Source of the DNA: a virus | IMG/VR virus record: IMGVR_UViG_3300034072_000578 | Location: 1-64,000 of that record | Direction: 5' to 3' (one strand) | Length of the DNA stretch: 64,000 bases | Part shown: in pieces, positions 53,498 to 60,000 of the stretch | Numbering within the stretch: position 1 is the stretch's first letter | Layout: the number at the start of each line of letters is the position of its first letter | Translations under genes and position numbers: made by a program | Notes under the pieces: generated by a model | The model's database searches: none | What the model saw: only the letters and a program-made list of their open reading frames with translations | Told to the model about the DNA's origin: nothing

Positions 53498-53574
53498 GCG
53501 CGTTTAGCTCAGTTGGTAGAGCAGTCGGCCCCTAATCCGACAGGCCACGGGTTCGATCCCTGTAACGCGCACCA
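53498..53574 (+). tRNA. tRNA with 8-nt anticodon loop (CCCCTAAT)
   Basis: Acceptor GCGCGTT/AACGCGC, D-arm GCTC/GAGC, T-arm ACGGG-TTCGATC-CCTGT and CCA are normal. The anticodon stem GTCGG/CCGAC is perfect only with an 8-nt loop. If read as CC-CCT-AAT it is tRNA-Arg(CCT) with C33; with the other register it is CTA. Total length is one nucleotide more than standard. Confidence 0.8.
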
Positions 53575-57447: not shown

Positions 57448-57460
57448 TAAGCTAATAGAA

Positions 57461-57485
57461 ACGGGGCTTAACGGCCCCGTTTTTA
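57461..57485 (+). terminator. rho-independent terminator after terC
   Basis: ACGGGGC-TTAACG-GCCCCGT followed by five T. Ends the ter cluster transcript. Confidence 0.92.
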
Positions 57486-57540
57486 TTTGACCTTAATCAA
57501 ATAATACTAGATTAAATATAAGATCAGGGCCAAGAAAAAA

Positions 57541-58477
57541 AGTTTGGGCTTGGTGCATTTTTCTCTTGCACCGAATCGATTCGTCGCCTAGATAGAGATC
57601 ACCGGCAAGGAAACGAACCGGTCGCTGCTTGAAGCGGATAAGCTAGAGTAATCTGGTGAAAGGTTAGGAGCCAAACCAAGCCGCCTAGTAATAGGTCAAC
57701 TTAAGCAACATGGAACTGACCGAAAGGTTCCTCTATACAAGTAGGGGATAGATTGAAGGATAAGGGTTTTAGGTCCGAAAGGATAACTAGCAGAGCTAAT
57801 CGGTGAGCTAGTGAAGTCGCAAACACCTGCACCAAGCAAAACTTATTCGAAGTCGATAGTGAACCATAAGGGTAATAGTTCGACCATTAGCGTGGAAGAG
57901 CATTAGCCAGTTACCAAAGGTGGAGACACTTTACGTAACCGTTGAGTAGCCCGCAAGGCGAAAGACATGAGGCGTGTGGCATGTTGTTCCCCAAAAGGGA
58001 ATGATACCATTGGACAAGCACGTCTTAACTGGAAACAACTTAGCATAACGGTAATGCGATGGACTCTTAATCCATTGATTGTTGGTTCAAATCCAGCAGT
58101 TGATTCATCAACGCAAAGCCTTGTCCAGCTATAAGTGAAAGGCACCTAAGCCCTACCTAGAGTGGGGGCATGAAGTCTCGCAAGGATGGATTGTTTGTAG
58201 TGGAAGAACTCATTGCTCTTTAGCGGGAGCTTAATGGAGGTAAAACTTCAATGGGATTAAGATACTATGAGTAGCTTGTAGTGATATCGCAAATGCCAGC
58301 GATTAATAAAATGGCGGTGTTGGTAGTTACTATGATACCTTGACCGGGTTATAGTGGAAAAGGCCCTAAACAATAAGGGGTTTAAGACTGCCCTTAGTAA
58401 GTGTATTCTCAGCTTGCTAATTACATATGGGGATAATCGCGTAAAGTCATTGGTCTGACCGCTCGGTTTCCCCACCA
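57541..58477 (+). ncRNA. giant structured non-coding RNA (about 0.9 kb) with tRNA-like insert
   Basis: No credible ORF on either strand. Perfect long-range helix GCTTGGTGCA (57548-57557)/TGCACCAAGC (57828-57837), extended by AGTTT/AAACT; GNRA hairpins (CC-GAAA-GG at 57720-57727, TCC-GAAA-GGA at 57774-57783); CTAGC/GCTAG; TGGACAAG/CTTGTCCA (58011-58018/58120-58127) encloses a tRNA-like domain; later ATCGC/GCGAT and TTAGTAAG/CTTGCTAA. It ends near GGGGATA...TTTCCCC-ACCA. Size, tRNA insert and phage setting recall the GOLLD/ROOL classes of ornate RNAs. The 3' boundary is uncertain. Confidence 0.7.
58027..58104 (+). tRNA. tRNA-like domain inside the giant RNA (anticodon CTT)
   Basis: D-stem GCAT/ATGC, anticodon stem ATGGA/TCCAT with loop CTCTTAA (CTT, Lys), T-arm GTTGG-TTCAAAT-CCAGC. 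Acceptor AACAACT/AGTTGAT has one mismatch and no CCA is encoded, so it may not be a functional free tRNA. Confidence 0.6.
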
Positions 58478-58478
58478 T

Positions 58479-58556
58479 GGCCTATGTAGCTCAGTCCGGT
58501 TAGAGCGTCCGATAAATAAGGAAGGTCGTTGGTTCGAATCCAACCCTAAGGCCCCA
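58479..58556 (+). tRNA. non-canonical tRNA-like (Ile GAT-like)
   Basis: GGCCT/AGGCC acceptor core, D-arm GCTC...GAGC, T-arm GTTGG-TTCGAAT-CCAAC and CCA. The anticodon arm is shortened: TCC-GATAAATAA-GGA. Could be a decayed tRNA-Ile. Confidence 0.5.
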
Positions 58557-58557
58557 T

Positions 58558-58654
58558 AGCGCGGTAGTTTGAGTGTGCTTCTGGACAGAAGTATGCAGAC
58601 AAAACAGCTTTCGGAGGATTGAAGACGGGGGTTTGAATCCCTCTCGCGCTTCCA
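58558..58654 (+). tRNA. non-canonical tRNA-like (possible Ser GGA)
   Basis: Perfect acceptor AGCGCGG/TCGCGCT (one G-T), T-arm GGGGG-TTTGAAT-CCCTC, CCA encoded. A stem TGCTT/AAGTA holds GGA in an 8-nt loop; the D-arm is reduced and the variable region is long. Confidence 0.5.
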
Positions 58655-58656
58655 AC

Positions 58657-58766
58657 GGGACGGTAATTCAGCGGTAGAAGACGAAACCTTGTCTAAGCCC
58701 TTTGAGGGTGATGGACCCCAAGACAAGGCCAGATAGTCGGAGGTTCGATCCCTCCCCGTCCCGCCA
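58657..58766 (+). tRNA. tRNA-like with an extra helix in the anticodon region
   Basis: Perfect acceptor GGGACGG/CCGTCCC, T-arm GGAGG-TTCGATC-CCTCC, discriminator G and CCA. In place of an ordinary anticodon arm there is CCTTGTCT/AGACAAGG enclosing 26 nt with a CCC-TTTGA-GGG hairpin. The anticodon cannot be assigned; TTG is one option. Confidence 0.5.
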
Positions 58767-58767
58767 C

Positions 58768-58977
58768 TTAATAACATTGAAACATGATGGTCTGCACATT
58801 GTCATGTTTCAACCTTGTTAAGTTTCACATTATCGGTGGGCTGAAATCCAGCGATAGAGGCAAGCCCCTAAGCAAGGCTCCTACGTGAACCTAATCCATA
58901 GTGTTAGGAGCGATGATTTACGCTAGCTATGATTAGGGGAAGCTAGAAAGGTTATAGACCTGATAAACTTCCCCTTC
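58768..58977 (+). ncRNA. structured RNA with likely pseudoknot
   Basis: TTGAAACATGA/TCATGTTTCAA is an 11-bp hairpin at the 5' end. GCTCCTA/TAGGAGC encloses CCTAATC, which is complementary to the downstream GATTAGG, giving an H-type pseudoknot. GGGGAAG/CTTCCCC closes the 3' part. No ORF. Confidence 0.6.
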
Positions 58978-58982
58978 TTAGT

Positions 58983-59059
58983 GGACCCTTAGCTCATTTG
59001 GTTAGAGCGACGGACTTTTAATCTGTAGGTGCTGGGTTCGAATCCCAGAGGGTCCACCA
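58983..59059 (+). tRNA. tRNA-Lys(TTT), second copy
   Basis: Perfect acceptor GGACCCT/AGGGTCC, stem ACGGA/TCTGT, loop CTTTTAA with normal T33, CCA encoded. Confidence 0.94.
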
Positions 59060-59061
59060 CT

Positions 59062-59151
59062 TACTTAGTAGTGATAGAATACGGGTTGGTTCTTCAATTT
59101 GCTTTTGCCCAAAAGCTGTCGATCCGTATTCTTTCTTTATTAAGTGGGGTG
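59062..59151 (+). ncRNA. hairpin RNA between tRNA-Lys and tRNA-Leu
   Basis: AGAATACGG...CCGTATTCT encloses a perfect hairpin GCTTTT-GCCC-AAAAGC; outer ACTTA/TAAGT may extend it. No ORF. Confidence 0.45.
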
Positions 59152-59182
59152 TTATGTATTTTCTTACGTTATGACCTACCAA

Positions 59183-59266
59183 GCCCTCTTGGCGTAATTG
59201 GTAGGCGCAGCAGACTTAAAATCTGCCGGTTGATCCGTCTCGGTTCGAGTCCGAGAGAGGGCACCA
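59183..59266 (+). tRNA. tRNA-Leu(TAA)
   Basis: Perfect acceptor GCCCTCT/AGAGGGC, stem GCAGA/TCTGC, loop CTTAAAA, long variable arm, CCA encoded. Last tRNA of the cluster. Confidence 0.94.
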
Positions 59267-59425
59267 AGTTTCAGAGCCAACTTCGCGGGCGTCTCCATCC
59301 GCGAGAAAACACCTAGACATACCCTCTTGCATGTGGGTAGTTAATGGACGGTGGGGTAAAAGCCCTCAATATGCAGCGTTATATGACTGGCCTTCGGTGT
59401 CGCAACCTAGCCTTTCGACTAACCT

Positions 59426-59447
59426 AGGCCCTTCGGGGCCTTTTTTT
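59426..59447 (+). terminator. rho-independent terminator of the tRNA/ncRNA arm
   Basis: AGGCCC-TTCG-GGGCCT followed by seven T. Very strong, UUCG-capped. The next gene starts 13 nt later. Confidence 0.93.
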
Positions 59448-59460
59448 GGAGTCTTACTAA

Positions 59461-60000
59461 ATGGGTCTTTTGGGTAAGAAGAAGCAAGAGCTTCCCGTCA
59501 ATGCCGGTGTCGAACTTGGCGACTACGTTAAGGACGTAGTTACCGGTTTTGAGGGCATTGCTTATGCTCGCGACTATCACCTTCACGGTTGCGACCGTAT
59601 CGAGGTATCTCCGACCAGCTTGGATGATAACGGCAACCCCAAGGATGCTTTCGTTTTCGATATCCTGCGCCTGACGGTGATCGAAAAGGGGCGTATGGCT
59701 TGTATCGAGCCTAACGCCCACTTTAGCGCGTTCACCATGGGCGCGAAGGTCAAGGACACCATCACCGGCTTTGAAGGCATTATCGGCACCCGCACCGAAA
59801 TCGTCACCGGCCTTACCCTCATCGGGATCATGCCGACTGTCCTTTCCAAGGAAGGCGCTCTCAAGGACGCTAAGGTCTTCCCGGCTGGCCGGGTGGAACT
59901 GATCGCGGAACAGCCTGTCCCGGTCGCTCCTGAGGCTCCAAAGGGCAAACCGGGCGGTCCTACCGAACGTCGCAGCGCTGCCAAGGCTCCGCCCCGCTAA
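59461..60000 (+). CDS. protein with two tandem copies of a 55-aa beta domain
   Basis: 179 aa. The unit LGDYVKDVVTGFEGIAYAR...DAFVFDILRLTVIE recurs as MGAKVKDTITGFEGIIGTR...DAKVFPAGRVELI; then a Pro/Lys-rich tail (PKGKPGGPTERRSAAKAPPR). The VKDxxTGFxG unit occurs in many phage hypotheticals, usually single. GC-rich codon use like the ter genes. Possibly a small binding domain; function unknown. Confidence 0.8.
   Translation: MGLLGKKKQELPVNAGVELGDYVKDVVTGFEGIAYARDYHLHGCDRIEVSPTSLDDNGNPKDAFVFDILRLTVIEKGRMACIEPNAHFSAFTMGAKVKDTITGFEGIIGTRTEIVTGLTLIGIMPTVLSKEGALKDAKVFPAGRVELIAEQPVPVAPEAPKGKPGGPTERRSAAKAPPR

Follow-up and report, generated by a model that had tools for sequence, protein, structure and literature searches.

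The phage genome considered here almost certainly encodes a GOLLD RNA of about 0.9 kb, in whose linker lies a tRNA-like domain with a damaged acceptor stem. The reading put forward, to which a probability of roughly 0.45 is assigned as a whole, is that this RNA assembles into a cage and holds the domain as a tethered, uncharged tRNA mimic; both the assembly and the tethering are inferred. Both GOLLD and tRNAs in its linker have already been published (PMC12286853; PMC6582537), and what is new here is a member in another phage. In the literature covered (Weinberg 2009 and Morgado 2020 lie outside it), acceptor damage is unreported as a general property of such tRNAs, and no priority is claimed for it.

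The DNA analysed is a stretch of 64,000 nucleotides (the window) from a parent virus record of 108,412 bases (IMGVR_UViG_3300034072_000578). The elements discussed below are the following.

57541-57966, + strand: variable 5' domain of GOLLD, about 426 nt, from homology and a covarying alignment of 15 sequences; start uncertain
57548-57837, + strand: 10-bp helix, GCTTGGTGCA (57548-57557) with TGCACCAAGC (57828-57837); present here, a helix at this place weakly supported in relatives
57709-57868, + strand: main helix closing part of the 5' domain (helix 5), 57709-57716 with 57859-57868
57967-58415, + strand: conserved 3' domain of GOLLD (RF02032), from a cmscan match to the full model
58011-58128, + strand: 8-bp helix enclosing the linker, TGGACAAG (58011-58018) with CTTGTCCA (58121-58128), from covariation
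58034-58106, + strand: tRNA-like domain with a CTT anticodon, lying in the GOLLD linker, from ARAGORN and the Rfam tRNA model
58480-59266, + strand: tRNAs and tRNA-like sequences that follow GOLLD and share its direction, from Rfam and ARAGORN
59426-59447, + strand: hairpin AGGCCCTTCGGGGCCT with a T-run after it, resembling a terminator and the first plausible site of this kind 3' of GOLLD

The identity of the RNA is given by cmscan, in which RF02032 matches the conserved domain with 183.6 bits (E 4.7e-50; gathering score 150) over the entire model, positions 1-416 of 416; the model represents the 3' domain only. Besides GOLLD, tRNA is the sole Rfam RNA in the window that reaches its gathering score, and ROOL gives nothing at gathering score in the window, nor up to E 1 in 57450-59470. 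A preliminary description of this DNA had proposed a member of GOLLD or ROOL, or else a new class: GOLLD is borne out by the Rfam scan, the new class is wrong, as the RNA belongs to a known family, and ROOL and the other Rfam families were rejected as identities for lack of a match. Of the features of GOLLD membership, the model score, a structured 5' region, a phage genome and a neighbourhood of tRNAs are found. The same description saw no plausible gene after terC, and this holds: between 57447 (end of the terC-like gene) and 59461 (start of the next gene) there is no convincing protein-coding gene, and the longest open reading frame on either strand inside 57541-58477 is an antisense one of 80 aa. 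It placed the RNA at 57541-58477; the region stands, but the 3' boundary at 58477 is unconfirmed, the conserved model ending at 58415.

The window carries terminase, portal, and major head genes of tailed-phage type, and the best terminase matches are to Rhizobium phages (54% identity). GOLLD is absent from the phages closest by terminase (Rhizobium phages, SSU5, and hairong), so the RNA does not track the terminase lineage. Among annotated phages, DNA relatives of the region amount to short matches in Caulobacter phages, and no close DNA relatives were found in plasmids. Where neighbours of the terC-like gene were sought in viral contigs, one contig (L002) is identical over the GOLLD stretch, while two records have no GOLLD. 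Of the four leucine codons counted in 35 likely genes of the window, CTA greatly outnumbers the others, at 37 per 1000 versus 6 for CTG, a preference that is unusual at 45% G+C; the phage has a tRNA-Leu(TAG). A tRNA at 53498-53574 has an 8-nt anticodon loop (CCCCTAAT, read by ARAGORN as 'ccta', Arg or Pyl) together with a perfect acceptor stem and CCA, and is possibly a frameshift or AGG-reading tRNA.

A consensus scan found no sigma-70 promoter upstream of GOLLD. Before 59426 there is no terminator-like site except one inside the tRNA domain, although such sites are no more numerous in the stretch than chance would give; with the first plausible terminator at 59426, GOLLD and the tRNAs that follow it may share one transcript. 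Directly 3' of GOLLD, 58480-58654 contains two degenerate tRNA-like sequences, the first scoring 33.4 bits as a tRNA in Rfam and the second recognised by eye only. Another tRNA-like sequence, at 58657-58763, has good acceptor and T arms, CCA and an anticodon arm enlarged by a long insert (CCTTGTCT...AGACAAGG); it scores 36.9 bits as an Rfam tRNA and was missed by ARAGORN. In other records, phage tmRNAs occur in the same tRNA arrays as GOLLD, one permuted (L143 2709-2949, 108.9 bits) and one standard (L011 6386-6734, 101.7 bits). In the Caulobacter phages phiCbK (L006 1702-2020) and BL57 (L005 1636-1954) an unannotated permuted tmRNA (RF04321, about 71 bits) lies near GOLLD, and an annotated tRNA-Gly gene lies inside the GOLLD linker.

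The 5' domain has homologues in the corresponding part of other phage GOLLDs (E 1.7e-11 for L162, 3.6e-7 for L008, and others), its conserved part beginning at about 57617. Counted from the start given in the preliminary description, it measures 426 nt and fits the length of about 420 nt expected for GOLLD; the solved GOLLD env-38 has a 5' region of 420 nt (PMC12286853). RNAalifold, applied to an alignment of the window with 14 phage relatives, returns 70 pairs, and two-sided compensatory changes occur in 56 of the 68 pairs counted. Paired cells make up 90.6% as against 36-40% in slid versions; taking the structure from this very alignment makes that control somewhat favourable, but does not account for so wide a gap. 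On every measure, all 500 shuffles fall short. For helix 5 the corresponding figures are 94.9% of cells paired and two-sided changes in seven of the eight pairs. Covariation in homologues, whose absence the preliminary description took as a refutation, is therefore strong, both here and in the helix that encloses the linker. The GNRA-capped hairpins that it noted are real and several are conserved in relatives (e.g., CCGAAAGG and CCGCAAGG). Folding energy is somewhat below that of shuffles, with z -2.8 for the whole region (20 shuffles) and z -2.1 for the 5' half.

The perfect 10-bp long-range helix first described in the 5' domain exists but is not significant alone: when the 937-nt region is dinucleotide-shuffled, a perfect helix of this length turns up in 25% of the shuffles (0.40 per shuffle on average), and a constrained helix search in 27 loci gives a mean score of 16.6, little more than the 15.3 for mismatched partners. 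GGTGCA (57552-57557) is indeed able to pair with TGCACC (57567-57572), but the competition between two structures that was read from it finds no independent support. Because such a helix is frequent in shuffles and weakly supported in relatives, it was rejected as independent evidence, and neither it nor the idea of competing structures is established.

The 8-bp helix that encloses the tRNA-like domain is genuine and is a general element of GOLLD. It is missing from the structure line of RF02032 in Rfam and may correspond to a GOLLD stem already published. It is present in all 61 GOLLDs that a motif search located and in 12 further tRNA-bearing loci, whether or not the linker holds a tRNA. In 39 distinct GOLLD sequences, 93.6% of cells are paired and seven of the eight pairs change on both sides; 108 cells carry a two-sided change, as against 29 +/- 4 when shuffled, and sliding the partner yields no more than 26. 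Choosing the two segments as the best complements close to a conserved AAAG motif tilts the count somewhat towards pairing, but does not explain the constant place and the covariation of the helix.

The domain inside this helix, described from the start as tRNA-like with a CTT anticodon, is recognised by ARAGORN and by the Rfam tRNA model (61.3 bits), and the alignment places it in the variable linker of the GOLLD model. It forms a cloverleaf with D, anticodon, and T arms, while the seven-pair acceptor stem and the encoded 3' CCA are lacking: A faces A at acceptor pair 2:71, and T73 is followed by CAT. ARAGORN finds 21 tRNAs in the window, this one included; CCA is encoded in all 20 free ones, and the embedded Lys(CTT) alone is without it. 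The closest free tRNA of the same phage is Lys(TTT), with 55% identity, which is uninformative as to origin. It is unlikely that the domain is an ordinary working tRNA, cut from the GOLLD transcript while the 8-bp helix joins the remaining pieces. The good score of its fold would suit such a tRNA, as would the frequency of AAG lysine codons in this phage (44.5 per 1000) when no second CTT tRNA was found in the window, and the flanking helix would permit excision with the cage kept; the A-A mismatch, T73 and the missing CCA speak against it, and in mycobacteria the pseudo-tRNA held by a GOLLD was not detected as a separate RNA (PMC6582537).

The acceptor defect extends well beyond this phage, as seen when 29 linker tRNAs, one from each of 29 records (L005 and L006 being nearly identical to each other), are set beside 216 free tRNAs in the same loci. 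Rfam and ARAGORN, together with pattern searches of viral and genome contigs, supplied the linker tRNAs; a search with the DNA pattern GAGTCGTG... gave no matches. In all of them the position within the 3' domain is almost the same. By Fisher tests, which assume independent records although related phages violate this, an acceptor stem with 7/7 pairs is found in 3 of 29 embedded versus 186 of 216 free tRNAs (p 2e-16), an encoded CCA in 2 of 29 versus 161 of 216 (p 1e-12), and an ATG anticodon in 4 of 29 versus 0 of 216 (p 1.6e-4). To our knowledge, decoding by an ATG anticodon is not expected in bacteria. The damage in 26 of the 29 and the ATG anticodons argue further against working tRNAs, whereas the perfect acceptor stems of L015, L166, and L171, two of which encode CCA, argue for them, so that some embedded tRNAs may be working ones. 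With register shifts allowed for, the loss of acceptor pairing is concentrated at pairs 1-3; the D, anticodon, and T arms are 97-100% paired, about as in free tRNAs.

This pattern also bears on the view that the embedded tRNAs are insertions from neighbouring arrays, passively decaying in a permissive linker, a less likely reading than the tethered mimic. In its favour, no part of GOLLD is less constrained than the linker, GOLLD is located within tRNA arrays, and some long linkers (L010 and L013) hold no recognisable tRNA. Identity turns over among relatives, the anticodons being very mixed and different even among close ones: L007 and L011, whose cores are 85% and linkers 45% identical, carry His(ATG) and Met(CAT), respectively. 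Passive decay should, however, affect all arms, and the three that stay paired, the differences between L173 and L175 in the D and T stems that preserve pairing, and the concentration of damage at the first three acceptor pairs are at odds with it. Detection bias weakens the point about the arms, in that ARAGORN needs intact arms and the later tRNA pattern a T-loop, so that both tend to pass over linkers whose arms have decayed. Part of the contrast between arms thus reflects selection, which does not apply to the difference in acceptor stems between embedded and free tRNAs.

ARAGORN finds a tRNA in the linker of 13 of 143 GOLLD stretches gathered without a tRNA pattern, a set that includes near-duplicates and gives no prevalence; as only these carry a recognisable tRNA, it cannot be needed for the core function of the family. 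A covariance model confirmed a subset of the stretches: among 50 records tested, including two neighbours of terC-like genes not chosen by any GOLLD pattern, 45 are over the cut-off and one more matched below it. Among loci taken later by the tRNA pattern, 14 of 23 are over the cut-off, L156, L163, L169, and L170 match below it, and five were excluded. In a tree of the 3' core, with the linker removed, tRNA-bearing members are clustered, yet about six gains or losses are needed, a figure that is not a count of origins, given poorly supported deep forks and sampling partly by tRNA pattern.

We know of no established function for GOLLD. By analogy with GOLLD env-38, which cryo-EM shows as a homo-14-mer cage with the linker inside (PMC12286853), the RNA would self-assemble into a hollow cage of 14 chains with its linker turned inward. 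Damage to the acceptor would block excision (RNase P, CCA addition) and charging of the tRNA domain, and the uncut domain would stay tethered inside the cage as a mimic or bait during infection; ribosomes, elongation factors, and host enzymes that attack or modify tRNAs are candidate targets. Expression of another GOLLD rises at lysis (PMC12286853), and a ribosome pull-down of GOLLD is cited in that paper. The wider proposal, which is more tentative, is that a widespread sub-group of phage GOLLDs holds a caged, acceptor-disabled tRNA mimic that is neither cut nor charged and whose identity is often replaced. If true, GOLLD cages would be devices presenting or hiding tRNA-shaped bait during infection. 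A special case of the mimic would be a decoy for host anticodon nucleases, whose caged tRNA fold would be cleaved or bound instead of real tRNAs. Phage tRNAs are reported to counter tRNA-targeting defences (PMC10264068; PMC11555353), and diverse, quickly replaced anticodons would suit such a role; but no one target anticodon is favoured, the cage interior is perhaps out of the reach of nucleases, and nothing in these data ties the embedded tRNA to a defence, which makes the decoy quite improbable. Acceptor-broken tRNA folds, seen across the family at one fixed place, provide a concrete handle on the role of the cage interior, and they suggest that tRNA genes annotated inside GOLLD (e.g., the tRNA-Gly of phiCbK) should not be counted as decoding without evidence.

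Among known systems, the RNA resembles GOLLD RF02032 in its full 3' match, variable 5' domain, phage genome, adjoining tRNAs, and linker tRNA, but differs from the best metagenomic GOLLDs in scoring 183.6 rather than 300-340 bits, and its core shares 60% identity with the nearest one in the tree set. With ROOL, which is cage-forming (PMC12286853), it shares the character of a giant phage RNA in a tRNA neighbourhood; ROOL has no sequence or structure match here in Rfam and its fold is unrelated. The mycobacterial GOLLD (PMC6582537) likewise has a pseudo-tRNA inside and many tRNAs around it, but belongs to a bacterial chromosome, unlike the phage setting here. In phiCbK and BL57 the linker tRNA is Gly(TCC) rather than Lys(CTT), and a terminator-like hairpin follows GOLLD directly, whereas none was found here between GOLLD and 59426; the unannotated GOLLD of these Caulobacter phages nonetheless has its tRNA in the same place in the linker, and its enclosing helix shows a compensatory change.
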